From positions 62,001 through 126,000 of the forward strand of contig JALHMG010000010.1 in NCBI GenBank assembly GCA_022844135.1: a stretch of 64,000 bases of DNA. Reading direction: 5' to 3'. The notes under the pieces were generated by a model. That model was not told the DNA's origin. It worked only from the letters and a program-made list of their open reading frames with translations, and made no database searches. The position numbers and the translations under genes were made by a program. Below, one piece after another: positions 694 through 10,519 of this stretch (its first letter is position 1; each line of letters begins with the position of its first letter). Origin of the DNA: Lysobacterales bacterium (lineage in GTDB: Bacteria > Pseudomonadota > Gammaproteobacteria > Xanthomonadales > SZUA-5).

Positions 694-1157
694 TTACCGT
701 AACCAGTGGCGACGCCTTCGGGATCGGTCGGCCGTCGCCAACCATAACGGCATTTCGAACGGTCCCGAAGGCGTGGTCAGCGCGACCTCTTCGACCAAAG
801 ATGCCTCCGCAGCGACTGGCGCACGCGTCTGTATACCGGTGCTGTCCCGAACCTCCACTGCTGGACCGATCCAGTGATAGCCGATGCCGGCCACCGTCCG
901 AATCACTTTCTGCGCTTCGCCATCATCCCCAAAGGCACGTCTGGCAGCCACCACGACGCGAGCGAGCTGGTTGTCGGACACATTGTCCCGCCCCCACAGA
1001 TTCAGAATCAATTCGTCGCGACCGACCGCACGATCGCGGTGCTGCAGCAAGTAAAGAATGCAATCGAAAACACGCCGTCCGACATCCGCTAACGCACGTC
1101 CTTGGTCAACATCAACTTTGCGGGATCGATCTGATACTCGCCGACACGGTAATGCAT
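694..1157 (-). pseudogene. Frameshifted and truncated winged-helix (OmpR/CadC-type) regulator remnant
   Basis: A start ATG at 1157 opens the typical N-terminal strand of this domain (MHYRVGEYQIDPAKLMLT), but this frame stops after 22 codons. The domain then continues in another frame from about 1100 (GRALADVGRRVFDCILYLL, then IRTVAGIGYHW). A one-base deletion, or an equivalent shift, near 1095-1103 therefore separates the two halves. After the DNA-binding domain there is a short Ala/Val-rich linker, and the ORF stops at 694 just after RSRRRRHW. In related proteins a membrane segment and a periplasmic or TPR part would normally follow. The tail abuts the REP-like element at 297-625, which may mark the deletion point. 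It is divergent from the kinase at 1619, which carries the same DNA-binding fold. A sequencing error could explain the frameshift but not the missing C-terminal part. Confidence 0.6.
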
Positions 1158-1618
1158 GGTGCCTCCGCTGGTTGCACGAGCCGCTGCAAGGTGAACGCCC
1201 TGCCGCTACAGTTGCCAATGAACATGTAGCTATTTGTCACCAGGACTCGGCGAGTTGCAAGCGTGATCGTGAACACTTCGTGCAGATTCGAGCCGAATCG
1301 ACGTTATTGGCTTCGCGCGATCGGCGCATTCGATGCAATTCGACATATTTCGATCATGCAAAACGCTGAAGACGTGCCAGTTAACCGAATGTTTCGATAG
1401 CCTCAGCACGCGGTTCCAAAGCTTGGCTAACGATGCTCAGCGAGCCATAAAATCAAGCAGATAGACGTGAAAACAAGCACCCTCGGGCGCAGGATCGACC
1501 CGCGCAACACCGGTCGGTTTCAGCATCGTATGGACATGTGACGGTCTCAGCACAATTTGGAGACCATAATCGTCCGCAGCGCGCTACGGTGCGACACAAT
1601 GAGGTCATGAGGTAAGCG
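1158..1618. other. Intergenic region, divergent promoters presumed
   Basis: No credible gene is seen in this 460-base gap between the broken regulator (minus) and the large kinase (plus). A short hairpin with GGTCTC/GAGACC arms lies near 1541-1565. A GAGG ribosome-binding site sits just upstream of the kinase ATG (GAGGTAAGCG then ATG at 1619). No convincing -35/-10 pair could be chosen by eye. Confidence 0.4.
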
Positions 1619-4600
1619 ATGACAACGCCGCTACGTCTCAATACCCGTTTTCTCGACCAGCGCTATGAGCTTGGCGGTCGCGTTATTGACCCCATCGCGG
1701 GAACGCTGCTTTGGAACGGCGATTCCTACGCGCTGCGCCGTAAACAGCTGGAAGTGCTTGCATTGATGGCCAGCGCCGGCGCGGCGATTGTGCCGCGCTC
1801 CACCTTTATTGATCTGCTCTGGGCAGGTAATGCACTGGTCGGCGACAAAGGGCTGACCGACACGCTGAGTTCGTTGCGCCGTGTCCTGCACGATTCGGAC
1901 GCCAGCCATCCTCTAATCCGTACCATTCCGCGCCAAGGTTATCAGCTTGGGGCCGGGGTGCGCTGGCTGGATGGCGAGCCCGCCGAGCGCTTCTCCGTGG
2001 GCGATGCGCTATCGAGCAATCCCGGCTGGCGTTTGCTTCGGCGCATTTCGCAGACCGATGTGCAACAAAGCTGGCTGGCGGCGAATAACGCTGGCGAGCA
2101 GCGCCAGTTTCGATTCTGCTGCGATGAACAACATCTGCGCCTGCTGCAGCGCGAGGTCACGGTCTTGCGCTTCCTGCGTGAGGCGCTGTCCGACCGCAGC
2201 GACATCGATCAGGTCATCGACTGGCAACTGGACGAGCCTCCCTATTACCTGGAATTGCATTACCCCGCCCATGGCAGCTTAGTCGAATGGACGACGGCCC
2301 AAGGCGGTCTGCGCCAAATTGCGCCCGGCGAACGGCTGCGCTGGATGGCCGACGCTGCGACTGCGCTGGCAGCGGTCCATGCGGTGCATATCGTTCATCG
2401 AAACGTTGGCGCCGAGAGCCTTTCGGTCGATGAGGTTGAAGGACGGCTGCAAATCAAACTGGGCGAATTTGGACTCAGTGAACTCACCGACCGCGCTGCA
2501 CTGCAGTCGCACAACATCACCGCCGCAGGACTGACCTTAGACGGCGCGGAACAAAGCGGCCCGCAGAACTACTGGGCGCCTGAGCGCCTCGTCGGGCAGC
2601 CGGCAACAGCGGCAGGCGATGTTTACGCACTGGGCGTCTTGATCTTCCAGTTCGCTGTTGGCGAATGGCTGCCGCTGCGGCCCAACTGGGAGCGTCAGGT
2701 CGCCTCGGCGCGCCTGCGCCAATTGATTGCTTCCTGCATCGCCGAACAAGCCAACGCCCGGCCCTCCGCAGCGTCGGTTGCCGAGCAATTGCGCAACCTG
2801 AGCGAGCTTCGCCCCGCCGACCGCAGCACGGAGCGGATCGACGAGCCGGCCGAACCGGCGCGTCCCGTGCTTGAGCCCGATGCGGACCCCGGTCGACGCA
2901 GCATCGGCCCGTACCGCATCCTGGAGGCGCTTGGCGAAGGCGGTATGGGAGCTGTGTATCTCGCTGAGCAGCGCACGCCGATGCAGCGCCAGGTGGCGCT
3001 CAAGGTCATCAAGGCCGGCATGGATTCAAGCCAGGTCTTAGCGCGATTCGAAGCCGAACGCCAGGCGCTGGCGCTGATGAATCACATCAATGTCGCGGCC
3101 GTTTTCGACGCCGCCAAGACCGACACCGGCCAACCGTATTTTGCGATGGAGTACGTGCCCGGCCTGCACATCACCGCGCACTGCGACGAGTTGGCGCTGG
3201 ATTTTCGCGAACGCATCGAGTTGTTCATGCAGGTGTGCGACGGCGTTACACATGCGCACCAGAAAGGTCTGATCCATCGCGATCTGAAACCGAGCAACAT
3301 CCTCGTCAAGCGCCAACAAGGCCAGCCGAACATCGTCAAGATCATCGACTTCGGCGTGGCCAAGTCGCTGCACGGAAAACTTGGCACGGTCACCGCGCAC
3401 ACACAGATCGGCAGTTTTGTGGGCACGCCGGTCTATAGCAGCCCGGAACAATTGCTCGGCCATCGAGCGAACGTCGATACGCGTGCGGACGTCTATTCGA
3501 TGGGCGTGGTTTTGTACGAGTTGCTGTCCGGCGTCACGCCCTACGCCGAAAAAGAACTGTCGAATAAATCGCCGTTGGAACTGGCCAAACTGCTGAGCAG
3601 CGGCGATCCACCGACGCTGGCGACACGCTACGCCAGCCTCGATCCGGCTGAAGAAACCAAGATCGCCGGGCAGCGCCGAACCACCGTCGCGCGCATGTTG
3701 CAATCGCTAGGCGCCGACTTGTCCTGGATCGTCGCCAAGTGTCTGGAGCGCGACCCGGAAGATCGCTACGACTCGGCCTCCGAACTGAAGCAAGAGCTGC
3801 AACGGTGGCTGGATGATCGTCCGGTCGAAGCAAAGCAGGCTGGCCGTTGGTACCGACTGCGCAAACATGTCCGACGTCATCGCGCCGCGGTCTCCCTGGC
3901 AGCCATCGTCAGTCTGGCGCTGATCGGCACCACCACCGCCGCCGTGATTGGCTTTGTTCGCGCCGAACGCGCGCTCGAAGCATCACGCCTCGCAGCCGCC
4001 GAAGCCAAGATGGCCGCCGACTTTCAGGTCAAACAAATGCAGTCGCTCGATCCGGCGATCATGGGCGCGGGCTTGCGTGACGCACTGATGGCGGCTGCCC
4101 GCGAACACGGAACCGAGCGCCGCTGGGACGCGGCTACGCTGGCGCAGCATGAGCAAAAACTCAGCGATTCGCTGGCCGGGATCAACTTCACCGATCTGGC
4201 GCTGGACCAGCTGGACGCCAACTTTCTGAAGCCGCAATTGGCGGCCATCAAGACCGAGTTTGCCGCCCACCCTTTGCTGCAGGCACAACTTTGGCAAACG
4301 ATGGCGGATACGCTGACCAAGTTGGGGCGGTCTAAAGTAGCGGTCGAGCCCCAGGAACTAGCGCTGGTGCAGCGCCGCAGGCTCCTCGGTGACGACAACC
4401 CATTGACGCTCTACTCGTTGGCCCGCAGGGCCGAATTGAAGTCGTTCTTGGGGCAATCGGATGCCGCTGAGAGCGAATCACGGGCTGCGCTGGAAGGAGC
4501 GCGGCGCGTCTTGGGCGATGACCATCCGCTGACGCTCGAGTTGAACGAAGTACGTTCGTGGATCCTTTCTCGGCTCGGCAGGTTCGAGGAAGCAAAGCCG

Positions 4601-6187
4601 TTTGCGCATGTGGCGCTTGCGGGACAGCGACGAACCCTCGGTGATTCGCATCTGGAAACGGTCGGAACCATGGTTAACGTCGCCCTGATCGAAAGAGCCA
4701 CGGGCAACGTAAACGAAGGACGTGCGCTGGCTGAAGAAGCACTTCGCGCCCATCGGCAGCTACTCGGGGACGACCATGTGACGACACTGGGCACTAAGCA
4801 CGAGTTAGCACTCTCTTATTTGCGTACTCACCAGCACGCGGACGCTGAGGACCTGTTGCGAGAGGTACTTGAGGGCCGACGCCGAGTTCTCGGTGACAAG
4901 CATCCTGAAATCCTCGGAATTCTCAGGGATCTGGCGAGGGTCCTCACGGCGCAGGGAAAACACGACGAGGCACAAGACCTACGCAATCAAGTCTACGAAA
5001 CTGCGCTGGCAATGTTTGGTCCCGATCATCCCGGCACCCTGCAGAGCCGATTGGATTCTGGCGCCGCAATGATCGACATGGGGCGCGTGGCCGATGCTGA
5101 AAAGACTCTTCGCGACGTCCTTGCGCGACTAAGTTTGGCAAACGATAACCACGCTATCGAGCCGACCGTCAGGGTGGCGCTTGCGCGAGCACTGAGAAGT
5201 CGATCAAAGTTGGCTGAAGCCTTGGCGCTTCTCCCGCCGGCTTGCGAGAGGCAGTATCGGAACTTGGGCGCTACGGGCGCTATCCGCTGTCAAAATTTGA
5301 CTGCGAGCATATTGATCGATCTAGGGCGCTACCGGGACGCGGAATCCCATTTACGCGGTGTACTCGACGATCTCAGAAATAACAGCCGGGAAGATGATCG
5401 CTTGGCGATCAGCGTCTCCAAACACCTGGCCGACGCTTTGGCCGCACAAGACAAGGCCGAGGAAGCGCTTGGACTGTATCGCAATGCTGCATCCGCATAT
5501 CAACTTACTCTCGGAATCGAGCACGTCGATACCTTAGCCGCAAATCGGTCGCTGGCTCTGTTCCTTGTCAGGACCGGGGAGCTTGACGAGGCTCTCGCGC
5601 TACAGCGAGCCACCCTCGATGCGCATCGACGAACGGTGGGCAACGCGAGCCCGAAGACGCTGGAGTCGATCATCGATTTGGTCGGCTCCCTGGTCCAGCG
5701 GAACGAAGCGGGACAAGCCCAGAACTTGCTCGAAAACGCTGTTCCCATGATCCGCGAGACCCTGGGCGACGACGCCCGCCTCAGCCTGCTGGCCCTCGAT
5801 CGCTTGGCACAAGCCTACCGTAAACTCGGCAAATCAGACGAAGCACTCAAGCTTGCCGAAACCATCGCGTCCTACACCAACCGACATGAAGAGGCACCTC
5901 ACTGGGTCGGCGCGTTCCAAGTTCACCATGGACAAGTCCTGGTGGACATGGGGCGATTCGCCGACGCTGAACGTCTCTTGGATCAGGCGACCCGCAACTA
6001 CTCTAAGGCTGACGGTGCGCCCAGGCGCGAAATGACCGAACTGTCCCAAGCCTATGTCGCGCTCTACTCTCGGTGGAACGCCTCTGATCCGTCCAGCGAC
6101 AGGGCGGCTCAGGGCGAACTTTGGAATCGGCGACTTGAGGCATTGAACAACGGCGCAGCTTCGCTGGCGGTACTGGCGATGATGTAG
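1619..6187 (+). CDS. Multidomain Ser/Thr protein kinase: winged helix, pseudokinase, kinase, TM, TPR
   Basis: A 1522-residue protein. Residues about 10-115 form an OmpR/CadC-like winged-helix DNA-binding domain ending in IRTIPRQGYQLG. Residues about 140-400 look like a degenerate Hanks kinase: the catalytic loop reads HRN instead of HRD near residue 259 and the DFG position reads GEFG near 282, so it is probably inactive. A second, complete kinase follows (about 427-745): glycine loop GEGGMGAVYLAE, lysine in VALKVIKAGMD, HRDLKPSN near 552, DFG near 577 and a GTPVYSSPEQ activation segment. One membrane segment lies near 757-782. The rest is a long run of TPR_10/TPR_12-type repeats (LLGDDNPLTL, RVLGDDHPLTLE and similar). 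If the membrane topology holds, the kinases face the cytoplasm and the TPRs the periplasm. The start is supported by GAGG seven bases upstream. Kinase-TPR proteins are common in this lineage; the winged-helix plus pseudokinase front end is unusual. The target is unknown. Confidence 0.88.
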   Translation: MTTPLRLNTRFLDQRYELGGRVIDPIAGTLLWNGDSYALRRKQLEVLALMASAGAAIVPRSTFIDLLWAGNALVGDKGLTDTLSSLRRVLHDSDASHPLIRTIPRQGYQLGAGVRWLDGEPAERFSVGDALSSNPGWRLLRRISQTDVQQSWLAANNAGEQRQFRFCCDEQHLRLLQREVTVLRFLREALSDRSDIDQVIDWQLDEPPYYLELHYPAHGSLVEWTTAQGGLRQIAPGERLRWMADAATALAAVHAVHIVHRNVGAESLSVDEVEGRLQIKLGEFGLSELTDRAALQSHNITAAGLTLDGAEQSGPQNYWAPERLVGQPATAAGDVYALGVLIFQFAVGEWLPLRPNWERQVASARLRQLIASCIAEQANARPSAASVAEQLRNLSELRPADRSTERIDEPAEPARPVLEPDADPGRRSIGPYRILEALGEGGMGAVYLAEQRTPMQRQVALKVIKAGMDSSQVLARFEAERQALALMNHINVAAVFDAAKTDTGQPYFAMEYVPGLHITAHCDELALDFRERIELFMQVCDGVTHAHQKGLIHRDLKPSNILVKRQQGQPNIVKIIDFGVAKSLHGKLGTVTAHTQIGSFVGTPVYSSPEQLLGHRANVDTRADVYSMGVVLYELLSGVTPYAEKELSNKSPLELAKLLSSGDPPTLATRYASLDPAEETKIAGQRRTTVARMLQSLGADLSWIVAKCLERDPEDRYDSASELKQELQRWLDDRPVEAKQAGRWYRLRKHVRRHRAAVSLAAIVSLALIGTTTAAVIGFVRAERALEASRLAAAEAKMAADFQVKQMQSLDPAIMGAGLRDALMAAAREHGTERRWDAATLAQHEQKLSDSLAGINFTDLALDQLDANFLKPQLAAIKTEFAAHPLLQAQLWQTMADTLTKLGRSKVAVEPQELALVQRRRLLGDDNPLTLYSLARRAELKSFLGQSDAAESESRAALEGARRVLGDDHPLTLELNEVRSWILSRLGRFEEAKPFAHVALAGQRRTLGDSHLETVGTMVNVALIERATGNVNEGRALAEEALRAHRQLLGDDHVTTLGTKHELALSYLRTHQHADAEDLLREVLEGRRRVLGDKHPEILGILRDLARVLTAQGKHDEAQDLRNQVYETALAMFGPDHPGTLQSRLDSGAAMIDMGRVADAEKTLRDVLARLSLANDNHAIEPTVRVALARALRSRSKLAEALALLPPACERQYRNLGATGAIRCQNLTASILIDLGRYRDAESHLRGVLDDLRNNSREDDRLAISVSKHLADALAAQDKAEEALGLYRNAASAYQLTLGIEHVDTLAANRSLALFLVRTGELDEALALQRATLDAHRRTVGNASPKTLESIIDLVGSLVQRNEAGQAQNLLENAVPMIRETLGDDARLSLLALDRLAQAYRKLGKSDEALKLAETIASYTNRHEEAPHWVGAFQVHHGQVLVDMGRFADAERLLDQATRNYSKADGAPRREMTELSQAYVALYSRWNASDPSSDRAAQGELWNRRLEALNNGAASLAVLAMM

Positions 6188-6268: not shown

Positions 6269-7099
6269 TCACTTGCCAAATGACCAAGGCCTCCTTCGGA
6301 GAGCACTCCAAGTGCCTGGGAGCACGTATGTACACCGACCAACAGGCGAGCTAGCTTCGTCTGCGATGCGATGTAAGCCCGACGGCAATGGATTAACCAG
6401 CCAATCATGATTTCGACAGTTCACAAGAACGTCTGCAGTCAGTTTCATGGTTCTCAGCGGACCGCCAAGTGTCGCCGCATTAACAACGTTCGGCGAGTTA
6501 AAAACAGCAACAACATCAAGAGCAGCATTAAACCTATTGTCGTGGGCCAACTGCAATCCGAAAATGGAGGCTGCGGCACCACCCAAACTGTGTCCGGTTA
6601 TGAAGATTGAAGTGCAACGGAGATTACTCAGTAGATTAGTAATGGTTTCGCTGTGAGCAGTCACACGGTTAACAAAACCACGCCCACCCCTCATTTCCAC
6701 GTTTCTTTTATTTGGAATCAGTTCGTTGGCGAAGGCGGCCTGGCCTCTCAGATCTGCAAGGACATCCCACAAGTTTGTGACTTCTGTGCCGCGCCAAGCT
6801 ACGACACAAGTGTTGGTGAGTTCCAGCGCTGCGAGATTGGTCTTGGTCGAGGAGAGGAGGTAGATCGCCTGGAACCACTTGGTCAGAGGCAGTTTGGTGG
6901 ACTCGAGCAGCGTCCCGCTGGTCAGCGTCGTCTGGTGGCGGCAAGCGCAGCACTGATAGTAGATCGCCTGCCCGCGTTGAAAGCGAGACCGCGTCCGGCC
7001 GTTGCACGCCGGACAGCGAAAACCGTTCGGCCAACGCCATCGATAAAGGGCTCGATAGCACTTGGCCTCCGTGCCAAAGTGCGGTCCCAAAAGCAGCAT
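6269..7099 (-). pseudogene. Chimeric ORF: IS1595-type transposase N-terminus fused in frame to class 3 lipase C-terminus
   Basis: A 276-codon ORF made of two unrelated parts. Residues 1-95 are the front of an IS1595-family transposase: GTEAKCYRALYRWRWPNGF, a zinc ribbon with CPAC (29-32) and CCAC (50-53), then TSGTLLESTKLPLTKWF. From residue 96 it becomes the catalytic half of a class 3 lipase, CVVAWRGTE, MRGGRGFVNRV and GHSLGGA (Ser about 171), then NCRNHDWLVNPLPSGLHR. The lipase part is clearly paralogous to the intact lipase at 7331-8656 but diverged by many substitutions. It lacks that protein's last ~35 residues and ends by reading into a sequence (CCAAGGCCTCC near 6282) that resembles the neighbour's terminator. 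The lipase N-terminal half and signal peptide are missing, so a secreted enzyme is unlikely. It is probably debris of an insertion followed by a deletion, although the frame is open throughout. Confidence 0.7.
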
Positions 7100-7330: not shown

Positions 7331-8656
7331 TCAACGCGGGTCGTCAATTCCGGCCTCGTTAAACCACCAAGTTAAACTGTGGTTTGTGGTCGGAAACGGG
7401 CTCCATTTTGAGTCTTCCCGAACGTAGGTACATCGAGAAACTTTTTCGCTATCTGCACTTCCAAGGCGATGTAGTCCGGACGGCAATGGGTTAACCAGCC
7501 AGTCGTGATATCGACAATTAACGTCTACGATACCGTTGGCACGAAGCACCGTCAACGGACGGCCGAGAGTGAATTCATCAACAACGTTTGGTGAGTTGAA
7601 GACGCCAACTCCATGAAATCGAGACCGCATAGCGTTATCATAAACCATCTGCAGTGCATTAATCTGTGCAGCCGCACCACCCAGACTGTGGCCAGTAATG
7701 TATACCTCCGCGCATCGCTGTTCAACCAAGCGATCGAAAACTACCTCATAGAAGGCGCTAACGCGATTGACAAATCCTCGCCCGCCCCTCATGATTGCGT
7801 TTTGAGCATTGGGTATCAGTTGATTGCTATACGAAATCTGACTTCTCAAGTCAGCATAGACGTCCGTCAAGTTATTCGTTCCCCGCCACGCTACGATACA
7901 CCGTTTGTCCGTTGTTCGGGCGTGTAAAGGCTTCGCCCAAACGTCAACTTCAGTGTAGTTCATTACGAGACTATATCCAGAATAGGTTGCGGGACTACTT
8001 GTATATGCCAGGGCTGCGAACGGAAGCACGGTTTTGCTGAATAGCGTCAATGACCCTCCCCACTTGTTGGGATTCTCAGAAATCTCTTCATTAGGACGGA
8101 GTTTCGAGACCAATCTTGAATACTTATAATCTGTAGTTCTTGAATGCGGCACGCCCGCATACATCGCCATTTCACTTGGATCGACAGCTTTAGACATCAC
8201 TTTGCCTGCGTCGATCTGTAGTAATATATTAACGTCATCCACGGTCGTTAGATCAACCTCCGGAAACTCGACGCTAACGATATGTTGTAACTTTTTCAAG
8301 TTAAACTGACTAGTCTCCAACACGATCGGCGATCCCCGCACTAACCCTTGACGCAACAAATCGAATGCGGCTTGATATTCTGATGGCTCGAGAGTGTCCA
8401 CATCGACGTAGTACATTTTGTCGCCAGGCCAGTCGGCAAAAATCTTCTCGCGAACCACGGGAATGCCCATTCCGACGGCTTCGAGTCCAATTTCGCCCAT
8501 TTTTTCTGACAAAAGAAGTACATGGGCGATATCGACTGACGCGTCGGCGATTTCCGTGTCGAGGAGCACAGACTCCTCGAACTTTTTGGATGAGCCTTCT
8601 GAATGTGCGATCATGGGCAATGCTGCAATCATGGCGATCAAGAGCGATCGATTCAT
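7331..8656 (-). CDS. Secreted class 3 (fungal-type) lipase-like hydrolase
   Basis: A 441-residue alpha/beta hydrolase. The start at 8656 is preferred over the longer frame at 8695 because it gives a clean signal peptide (MNRSLLIAMIAALPMIAHS) and has AAAGGA about ten bases upstream. Residues about 30-200 are not recognised. The Lipase_3 region starts near CIVAWRGTNN (about 253), and the nucleophile elbow GHSLGGA places the catalytic Ser near 324. The Asp and His are probably within FNSPNVVDE and DWLVNPLPSGLHR (inference). It most likely acts on acyl esters outside the cytoplasm; the substrate cannot be told. The base composition is visibly lower in G+C than that of the surrounding genes, and a damaged paralog lies directly downstream, both suggesting acquired DNA. 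A strong hairpin terminator follows. Confidence 0.8.
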   Translation of the reverse strand: MNRSLLIAMIAALPMIAHSEGSSKKFEESVLLDTEIADASVDIAHVLLLSEKMGEIGLEAVGMGIPVVREKIFADWPGDKMYYVDVDTLEPSEYQAAFDLLRQGLVRGSPIVLETSQFNLKKLQHIVSVEFPEVDLTTVDDVNILLQIDAGKVMSKAVDPSEMAMYAGVPHSRTTDYKYSRLVSKLRPNEEISENPNKWGGSLTLFSKTVLPFAALAYTSSPATYSGYSLVMNYTEVDVWAKPLHARTTDKRCIVAWRGTNNLTDVYADLRSQISYSNQLIPNAQNAIMRGGRGFVNRVSAFYEVVFDRLVEQRCAEVYITGHSLGGAAAQINALQMVYDNAMRSRFHGVGVFNSPNVVDEFTLGRPLTVLRANGIVDVNCRYHDWLVNPLPSGLHRLGSADSEKVSRCTYVREDSKWSPFPTTNHSLTWWFNEAGIDDPR

Positions 8657-9337
8657 TGCGGTGTTCCTTTTGTGCGTTGCGATTGTAGCGTTCATATCAA
8701 TTCCTCTTTGGTTTATTCACTGCTTGTTGATTCTTTGATTGCGTTTGATAACGGCATTCGGTTAACGCCTGCCGATGTCCAAGCTACGGATCCGCACGCA
8801 ATTGGTCGTTCCATGCGCGTGTAACGGCGATGGCGATGCGATGACATGCACGTGGCAGATGGGTGATAGCTGCTCCGCACGTTTAAACTCGCTGCGGACA
8901 GGCGCGGTCGGCTGGCGTGAGAGGGTCGAAGTACTTGGGCGTCCATGCGCCGAGAGCACGACGAAGGGTGCGGAGGAGCACTAAGTGGCGGCAAGTAGGC
9001 GACCGTCAGCAATGGACGATGCAATGTCGACGCCAGGTCTTGCCGGATTCCCCCAGTGCCATCGCCGACCTGAGATCGCCCCAGCGGGGCAACGCACACC
9101 AGCCCAGGGTGCGAGTGTGGGTATCGAATGGGAAAAAGGATGCGTTCTGAAGGAACGCGGGGATCGGTGGCGCGCATGACCCAAGGCGTTGCCCTGGGCT
9201 GGTATGCGATGCCCCGTTGGGGCATGGCGCGGCGATTTGACAGGACAGTCTTGTTGCCCGACGAGATTGCAGTTACGGACTCGCAAGGCGAATGTCAGCG
9301 GCGAACGATCGAATGTCGTCACCGGATGTTGCCGGTT
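8657..9337. other. Intergenic region with a REP-like element at its distal end
   Basis: The part up to about 9050 holds no gene I can support; it includes the ribosome-binding site (AAAGGA) and presumably the promoter of the lipase. The rest is the REP-like element described at 9060-9290. Several short ORFs on both strands code for low-complexity, Arg-rich peptides and are shadows of the repeat. Confidence 0.5.
9060..9290. repeat. REP-like palindromic intergenic element, full copy
   Basis: Two long inverted arms flank a core. The left arm (about 9077-9123) has GCCCCAGCGGGGCAACGC and ACCAGCCCAGGGT. The right arm (about 9183-9230) has GCGTTGCCCTGGGCTGGTAT and GCGATGCCCCGTTGGGGC, nearly the reverse complement of the left. 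The core contains the small palindrome GCGTTCTGAAGGAACGC. The flank continues with a GTTGCCCGACGAGATT block shared with the copy at 297-625. Such elements recur in many genomes; here they sit on both sides of the lower-GC segment. Confidence 0.65.
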
Positions 9338-10519
9338 TTACTCCCGCTCCAATCGCATCAAAACATCGCTGGCATGAAAGGTGCGGTTCCGTCGTTGCTT
9401 CGGTTCGTTGAGGATCCCGCGCTGCACCAGTTGTTCGATGGCCCGATTGGCCGCAACGAAGGAAATCCCAAACGCCGTTGCGACCTGGGTGACCGATACA
9501 ACCGGATGGCCGAGCAGGAACGCAGGGAGGCGCAGTGCAGTGGCGTCCGATCTGAGGTCGGCGAGCCGGCTCATCCAGTTCTTGCGGATCCCGTCCAGAT
9601 CTTTGGCGATGGCGATCGCCCCATCGCTGGCTTCTACGACCGACAGGCATAGCAGCCGAGTCCAAGGTCCCCAGTTTGCGCGCAGTTGCACATCCGCAAG
9701 CGCGTCGTAGTACGCGCGACGGTGGCGCAACAATCGGCCAGAAAGGTACAGCGGCGGATAGCCTTCGGCAGCCAGGATCAGCGGCATCAACAGTCGACCG
9801 ATGCGGCCGTTGCCGTCGACAAAAGGATGGATGGTTTCGAACTGCGCGTGCGCGATGGCGATTTGCGCCACCACCGGGACCTGCCAGGACTCGTCCTCGC
9901 GCGGCGCGTACTGCAGCATCGACTGCTCCAGCTCGTCCATGCATCCGGCGATCCGATCCGGTGGCGCCGGGACGAAGACCGCGTCCTCAATGCGGCCACT
10001 GCCGATCCAGACCTGAGTGTCCCGGTACTCGCCCGCGCGCACATGCGCTGGCCCGTCCTGCATCAGGATGGCGTGCATGTTCCTGACCAGAGGGACGTTC
10101 AGGGCGCGGCGCGCGGCTGTCTCGCGCACGCTGGCCAATCCGAATTGAAGGGCCTGGACATATCGCTCGGTCACGGTCGCGTCGGGAGGCAGTCCATCGC
10201 GGCTCTGTGTCGCCTCATACTCCAGGAGTTCGTGCAACTGCGTCCGCGTACCTTCGATCTGCGAGCTCTGCGCCGCCTCACGCCGCGCCAGAGTGCGAGT
10301 CACCATGTCGCCATTGGGGAGAAGCTCGGCTGCTATTTTGAGCCGCTCTAACGCCTGCATCGCAAGCATCACCAGATGCGCGACGGCCGGATCATCGGGA
10401 AGCCGCCGTGGTGTGGCCGGCGCAACGAGCGCGTAGCAATTCGGATGACTGGTGCACTTCACCAAGTAGCGGTGGAGCGCATTGCTGACGTCGGCCCGGC
10501 GCATGTCGGAGAGCCGCAA
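9338..10519 (-). CDS. Fic family protein (adenylyltransferase), self-inhibited class II type
   Basis: A 393-residue Fic protein. The catalytic motif HPFVDGNGRIGR is complete near residue 230, with the His that activates target hydroxyls for AMP transfer. An inhibitory helix motif SSQIEGT at about 85-91, N-terminal to the Fic core, fits class II Fic proteins that block their own ATP site through the Glu. A winged-helix-like C-terminal region (about 330-390, VSVTQVATAFGISFVAANR) is common in this subfamily and may bind DNA. No separate antitoxin is adjacent, consistent with the internal inhibitor. The first ~25 residues look unlike other Fic starts, so the true start may be downstream. It is cytoplasmic, and the target protein is unknown. 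Confidence 0.85.
   Translation of the reverse strand: MRLSDMRRADVSNALHRYLVKCTSHPNCYALVAPATPRRLPDDPAVAHLVMLAMQALERLKIAAELLPNGDMVTRTLARREAAQSSQIEGTRTQLHELLEYEATQSRDGLPPDATVTERYVQALQFGLASVRETAARRALNVPLVRNMHAILMQDGPAHVRAGEYRDTQVWIGSGRIEDAVFVPAPPDRIAGCMDELEQSMLQYAPREDESWQVPVVAQIAIAHAQFETIHPFVDGNGRIGRLLMPLILAAEGYPPLYLSGRLLRHRRAYYDALADVQLRANWGPWTRLLCLSVVEASDGAIAIAKDLDGIRKNWMSRLADLRSDATALRLPAFLLGHPVVSVTQVATAFGISFVAANRAIEQLVQRGILNEPKQRRNRTFHASDVLMRLERE

Follow-up and report, generated by a model that had tools for sequence, protein, structure and literature searches.

A predicted membrane-bound regulator of Lysobacterales that combines a ToxR/CadC-type winged helix with a predicted pseudokinase and a complete Ser/Thr kinase

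In a stretch of 64,000 nucleotides from the 5.34 Mb genome of a Lysobacterales bacterium (G000; contig JALHMG010000010.1, positions 62,001 to 126,000), here called the window, one gene encodes a protein in which a winged helix is followed by a degenerate kinase domain (K1), a complete kinase domain (K2), a single membrane helix and a long TPR region (Table 1). This domain order had been proposed in a first-pass annotation made from the letters alone, and was confirmed by Pfam, alignment and hydropathy. In the whole-protein Pfam search, Trans_reg_C is matched at residues 36-110 (E-value 1.1e-8; 35.5 bits, with the cut-off at 26.2). Pkinase is matched in two places, the best being 432-723 (whole-protein E-value 2.4e-61), and TPR_12 in nine stretches, the repeats reaching about residue 1457. 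The NCBIfam names PknB_PASTA_kin, MAD6 and FxSxx_TPR were not applied, because their matches lie below the whole-protein cut-offs. The membrane helix is the only one found (mean hydropathy 2.11), and the basic residues preceding it suggest an N-in orientation, with the TPR part outside the cytoplasm.

On the 3' side of the gene there are two copies of a class-3 lipase, one of which was probably broken by an insertion element, and beyond them, on the minus strand, a Fic/DOC family protein with a Fic_N domain (9338-10519). A 107-base repeat (506-612 and 9052-9158, 81% identical) flanks the module. It has eight matches in the genome, including itself, and since four of the eight are on other contigs we consider it a dispersed intergenic repeat and discarded the idea of a mobile element around the module; a plasmid search gave no match at 1e-20.

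Table 1 Features of the two-kinase gene and its surroundings in the window, and members of the unnamed YAE family at other loci
Feature	Residues	Position	Strand	Basis and remarks
Whole gene: winged helix, K1, K2, membrane helix, TPR	1522 in total	1619..6187	+	ATG start; open reading frame list and Pfam
Winged helix, ToxR/CadC/OmpR type	12-115	1652..1963	+	Pfam, solved-structure matches, predicted model
K1, predicted pseudokinase domain	134-400	2018..2818	+	R165 for Lys, E179 kept, N262 for Asp, E283 for Asp; profile and alignment; fold of the N-lobe predicted with low confidence
K2, complete PknB-like Ser/Thr kinase domain	429-725	2903..3793	+	K462, E480, D555, N560, D577; Pfam and alignment
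Single membrane helix	762-780	3902..3958	+	Basic RLRKHVRRHR just before; hydropathy only
TPR region	888-1457	4280..5989	+	Outer limits of the best TPR-type stretches in Pfam
Intergenic gap 5' of the gene		1219..1618		Faces the broken winged-helix gene of the opposite strand; no common motif found
Remnant of kinase-free winged-helix gene		694..1218	-	Broken; frame interrupted near the start
IS1595 transposase zinc ribbon joined to class-3 lipase C-terminal part		6269..7099	-	Open reading frame; broken lipase copy
Class-3 lipase, probably secreted		7331..8695	-	N-terminus judged signal-like by eye; from a rare family linked to two-kinase genes
YAE members, L032		383-1531, 1951-3018
YAE member, L103		11565-12794
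YAE member, L031		413-1495
YAE members, L069		10352-11443, 11499-12545

The N-terminal part (residues 1-119) matches the solved structures of ToxR (1.5e-10) and CadC (9.2e-9) ahead of those of response regulators (1.2e-4 or weaker), in agreement with the likeness to CadC that had been noted before. Residues 1-430 were modelled with AlphaFold2, using an alignment of only four sequences (mean pLDDT 65.8, pTM 0.46). In the model, strands and helices follow one another as in OmpR-type domains, with a pLDDT by blocks of 74-90 over residues 11-120, which together with the Trans_reg_C match upholds the earlier assignment of residues 10-115 to a winged helix. Scanned alone, residues 120-415 match Pkinase with an E-value of 3.2e-15 (56.7 bits against a cut-off of 31.7), and retrieve Ser/Thr kinase chains from the PDB at 2.2e-7. 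As this segment passes the Pkinase cut-off by itself, its sequence does not contradict the kinase-like character that the first-pass annotation had given to residues 140-400. In the model this character is borne out for the C-lobe, with pLDDT of 79-83 (residues 221-250), 64-70 (251-280) and 79-91 (321-390), but not for the N-lobe, which is not confidently predicted (32-52 over residues 131-220); the activation segment (281-310) is at 39-49. Compared with solved structures, the model retrieves protein kinases with a Foldseek E-value of about 2e-8, and VIA gives Z values of 20.0-21.5 over 154-224 aligned residues among the best 50 matches, many of which rest on residues 209-400 only. In a model of 780 residues the N-lobe of K2 (431-500) has pLDDT of 35-52, and that of K1 24-43; thus, as the N-lobe of the intact kinase is also poorly scored, the shallow alignment of four sequences explains at least part of the low confidence. 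The pTM of this second model (0.39) is too low for the domain arrangement or a K1-K2 contact to be read from it, and the arrangement that it displays was discarded.

The alignment of K1 with other kinases shows HRN (260-262) in place of HRD and GEFG (282-285) in place of DFG, confirming that both the catalytic and the metal-binding Asp are absent, as first described. The loss goes further than was then recognised, since the β3 Lys is replaced by Arg165 and the glycine-rich loop is missing; the catalytic-loop Asn is also absent, and the αC Glu179 is retained. Thus, among the five Hanks-type features (glycine-rich loop, VAIK Lys, αC Glu, HRD Asp and DFG Asp) the αC Glu alone remains in K1, and all five can be recognised in the K2 sequence, as GEGGMG, K462, E480, HRDLKPSN (D555) and DFG (D577). 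K1 corresponds to a bacterial pseudokinase, in the sense of a kinase fold lacking the Lys, the HRD Asp or the DFG Asp, with the fold here taken from the profile and the predicted C-lobe, and we refer to it as a predicted pseudokinase.

In total we found nine two-kinase proteins in six genomes, counting L037 and L069 once, and four of them belong to the genome of the window. Here, further complete genes are present at L031 (contig C6), L032 (C58) and L033 (C5), the last with a truncated tandem copy (3720-4736, winged helix and part of K1) on its 5' side. Another relative, L037, is found in G003, from the same family of genomes, and two more, L139 (G122) and L140 (G127), come from another family of the order. 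A search with an N-terminal alignment among named genomes confirmed three of 30 pattern matches, namely L069 (a Lysobacterales MAG), L070 (Rhodanobacteraceae MAG-228) and L071 (MAG C8_MAG_00034); L140 and L071 end at contig ends, the contig of L071 being 3.3 kb long. In all nine proteins K1 has the β3 Arg, within an invariant Arg-Phe-Cys, has lost the DFG Asp and has kept the αC Glu, and the K2 motifs are complete. The catalytic Asp of K1 is lost in seven of the nine (Asn in six, Gln in one) and retained in L032 and L033; these counts of residue loss are not independent, as the tree described below gives a single origin.

The search by domain architecture also revealed a commoner family, in which the winged helix is joined to one kinase only. 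Of the 398 genomes of the order that were searched, at least 51 have a protein with a winged helix plus kinase (full-length match, E-value ≤ 1e-80, starting by model position 25, with at most four candidates scored per genome), and at least four have the two-kinase protein (G000, G003, G122 and G127); among the 51, the matching protein in G003, G122 and G127 is the two-kinase one. For 28 further genomes (L041-L068) we determined the number of kinases and their residues, and each locus has exactly one kinase domain with the Lys, HKD and DFG all kept; the other genomes were judged by the length of the open frame, which in G216 and G383 is too short to judge the kinase number. The genome of the window has three single-kinase genes, L034 (C16), L035 (C39) and L036 (C7), and in the first two, with HGD and HRD respectively, the Lys, catalytic Asp and DFG are intact, so that the catalytic residues are intact in 30 of the 31 single-kinase proteins examined. 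L036 (2469-5231) has a degenerate lone kinase (HQS, NLG), that is, a pseudokinase without a second kinase, which probably represents a separate loss. In wider samples matches are few: at 1e-60, three of 274 genomes in a sample of the class (G000 and two others) and four of 299 in a sample of the phylum (G000, two others, and G019, which belongs to the same order) have one. Judged by this cut-off, it is mainly in this order that a winged helix and a kinase are joined.

In order to place the two kinase domains, we calculated trees from 102 rows and from a cleaned set of 92 rows, which left out 14 of the 57 other-kinase rows, copies of two-kinase rows, with SH-aLRT support from a quick search. 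In the 92-row tree the K1 domains form one clade (96), which groups with the 31 single-kinase domains (100), and the K2 domains form another (99); L036 and L035 are long branches. The 102-row tree agrees, and in it the K2 clade is nested among ordinary kinases of the family; K2 and the parts downstream also align to ordinary kinases encoded by genomes of that same family. With K1 as one clade and K2 as one clade inside the ordinary kinases, a single joining event fits. The most likely history, and the simplest, is that a winged-helix/kinase gene was joined once to a kinase-TM-TPR gene, with K1 catalysis lost at that time or afterwards; the one-clade origins are supported by the tree, and the order of events is our inference. 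The two-kinase and single-kinase K1 domains are sisters rather than nested, so the reverse history is also possible, in which the ancestor may have had two kinases and K2 was then lost in the single-kinase proteins.

The domains differ in how strongly they are conserved. Mean pairwise identity among seven two-kinase proteins (21 pairs, 15 for the C-terminal part) is 57% for the winged helix, 44% for K1, 58% for K2 and 28% for the C-terminal part. The dN/dS values of winged helix, K1 and K2, obtained by simple count with the K2 comparison stopped at residue 640, are 0.11, 0.20 and 0.04 for L139/L140, 0.13, 0.24 and 0.10 for L032/L071, and 0.19, 0.19 and 0.11 for the window protein and L037, the first two of these last being near saturation; the tandem copy of L033 has 0.22 over 300 codons. 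K1 is under purifying selection, and is less constrained than K2.

Two rare families, probably secreted as judged by eye from their N-termini, recur next to the two-kinase genes. The lipase family is also found at G003 (L102 5228-6739) and at G398 (L110 3775-5163), and in a set of 299 genomes of the order it is present in two, G000 and G003, solely at two-kinase loci. At the G003 and G398 loci intact relatives of the kinase-free winged-helix gene adjoin the two-kinase gene as well. The second family, which we call YAE, comprises unnamed proteins of about 350 residues that have several conserved Cys and, close to the N-terminus, a YAE motif; five members gave no Pfam match, and the one tested gave no NCBIfam match. 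It occurs in six of the 299 genomes, mostly adjoining winged-helix regulators. In G000, all four copies lie within 4 kb of two-kinase genes (three at C58, one at C6), and in G003 two of the three copies are near the two-kinase gene. Since only 1.1% of G000 is within 5 kb of its four two-kinase genes, the location of both YAE clusters there is unlikely to be due to chance (about 1e-4, a post hoc estimate). Overall, five of the nine two-kinase loci have the lipase and/or the YAE family within 5 kb. Neither is found within this distance at L033, L071 (on its 3.3 kb contig), L139 and L140, nor in the stretches around the three single-kinase loci of G000. L139 and L140 adjoin a DnaJ/RDD gene, and L140 also an Hsp70 gene (L140 2054-4938, L139 476-1756).

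The lipase and, for the paralogues, the YAE family are likely but unproven targets of the two-kinase proteins. Among the other YAE sites, four of five are near a kinase-free winged-helix protein (one about 4 kb off), with TPR matches in three of those four, and the fifth has no winged-helix protein in 14 kb; the kinase-free proteins may therefore be the real regulators of this family. A conserved operon with the lipase was discarded, since gene orientations vary among loci. In addition, we searched for a common upstream motif among 18 stretches, taken from two-kinase, lipase, unnamed-family and winged-helix genes, using 14-base words with up to three mismatches in 14 of them; the best word was found in five of 13 others, and the best of five single-base shuffles also reached five. 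The motif was thus discarded as a regulon signature, being no better than shuffles; exact 8-base direct repeats occur in two of the 18 stretches. The first-pass annotation had no view of the single-kinase family, of the origin from two parts or of the association with probably secreted proteins.

By its sequence, the protein unites traits of CadC/ToxR regulators with those of Ser/Thr kinase-TPR receptors. CadC/ToxR regulators join input and output without a kinase or receiver. They have in common with the window protein the N-terminal OmpR-type winged helix, one membrane helix (here from hydropathy only) and a large C-terminal part, whereas in the window protein there is a TPR tail, and two kinase domains separate the winged helix from the membrane; for this reason we do not file it as a member of that group, although it may work alike. 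The single-kinase winged-helix proteins, mostly from Lysobacterales, have a homologous winged helix and K1, but their lone kinase is mostly intact and K2 is absent, whereas the PknB-type Ser/Thr kinases with membrane helix and repeats from the same family of genomes resemble the protein from K2 onward and have neither winged helix nor pseudokinase. In Janus kinases, which are eukaryotic, a pseudokinase stands beside an active kinase in one chain. This tandem arrangement, reported also for wheat Yr15, is like that of the window protein, but the other domains differ and the likeness is by analogy only.

The first-pass annotation had suggested that phosphorylation could control DNA binding directly, and for separate proteins there is a precedent. 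In bacteria, separate Ser/Thr kinases phosphorylate the OmpR-type regulators GraR, CovR and RitR, and phosphorylation of DNA-binding regulators by such kinases alters their DNA binding, which is enhanced for GraR and reduced for VraR, according to PMC4601284. The pairs EmbR/PknH and GraR/Stk1, described in the same paper, likewise place an OmpR-type domain under a Ser/Thr kinase, but there kinase and regulator are separate proteins. We compared K1 with two of the bacterial pseudokinase families in PMC12599244, by the features described there: the DLHK pseudokinases have no membrane region and keep the HRD Asp, unlike the membrane helix and HRN of the window protein, and the DYD pseudokinases share the Lys to Arg change but have lost the αC Glu, which is kept in nine of nine K1 domains (Glu179 in the window); the comparison covered these two of the families of that paper, which also include ActPs1-3, CP1 and GLW. 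The main text of that paper does not contain the terms winged, HTH, DNA-binding, tandem, TPR or Xanthomon, and in the open-access literature searched we found no report of a winged helix fused to a Ser/Thr kinase.

We propose that the protein may be a membrane-anchored transcription regulator akin to ToxR and CadC that carries its own kinase relay, with K1 as the link by which K2 acts on the winged helix; to this reading we assign a probability of about 0.45. A signal would be received by the C-terminal TPR part, presumably outside the cytoplasm, and passed through the single membrane helix to the juxtamembrane K2, which is complete by its motifs and would be active. The sites phosphorylated by K2, in cis or between the partners of a dimer, would lie in K2 itself, in K1, in the linkers or in the winged helix. 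K1, probably unable to phosphorylate, would connect K2 with the winged helix as an allosteric or docking element, thereby switching DNA binding on or off. No phosphorylation site peculiar to the two-kinase proteins was apparent by eye in the winged-helix stretch of residues 78-112. Against the relay we count the lack of a motif above shuffles, the four of nine loci without either family, and the occurrence of YAE proteins beside kinase-free winged-helix proteins. A more far-reaching version, which we hold as a tentative and rather doubtful possibility, is a bacterial counterpart of the Janus-kinase plan wired to DNA, in which a single membrane-bound chain would unite a sensor, an active kinase, a pseudokinase switch and a transcription factor. 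It would have arisen once, when the kinase nearer to the DNA lost its catalysis next to a second kinase that had just been joined, and its paralogues would control their own linked secreted families.

It is unlikely, though still a reading to be reckoned with, that the winged helix is a chromosomal anchor, itself unregulated, which would hold K2 at promoters to phosphorylate other proteins, such as the neighbouring kinase-free regulator or the transcription machinery. K2 is as conserved as the winged helix, and kinase-free winged-helix proteins adjoin the two-kinase gene in G003 and G398, with a remnant in the window, both of which speak for it. However, in the window that neighbour is broken while the two-kinase gene is intact, and in the single-kinase proteins the kinase directly adjoins the winged helix, an arrangement equally compatible with regulation in cis.

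The chances are lower that the winged helix has lost its DNA binding and now serves for dimerisation or docking, in a receptor kinase that would phosphorylate unrelated proteins. The Trans_reg_C score of the window protein is the lowest among the 35 matches listed for the genome (40.1 bits, still above the cut-off), but the wing stretch TIPRxGYQL is retained in nine of nine two-kinase proteins, and the mean identity of 57% and the dN/dS of 0.11-0.19 in three pairs argue against a domain released from its function. Slightly less probable again is that K1 retains a catalytic or nucleotide-driven function by another route, with Arg in place of Lys, and is not a true pseudokinase. The HRD Asp kept in L032 and L033 and the αC Glu kept throughout would agree with this, as would the families without the β3 Lys that have been modelled with ATP (reported in PMC12599244); in the window K1, however, the Lys, catalytic Asp, catalytic-loop Asn, DFG Asp and glycine-rich loop are all missing together. 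Finally, K1 as a functionless leftover of the fusion that is fading away is very improbable, since, although it diverges faster than K2 (54 against 78% identity between the window protein and L037), its dN/dS is about 0.2 in three pairs and its Arg-Phe-Cys and αC Glu are invariant across nine proteins from six genomes.

That Ser/Thr kinases tune winged-helix regulators which are separate proteins is known; here kinase and regulator form one chain, so that a single purified protein is enough to test cause and effect. The family also offers a natural series, from an intact single kinase through a degenerate single kinase (L036) to a pseudokinase plus complete kinase, by which the role of a bacterial pseudokinase beside an active kinase becomes directly testable, and two rare, probably secreted families are indicated as possible outputs.
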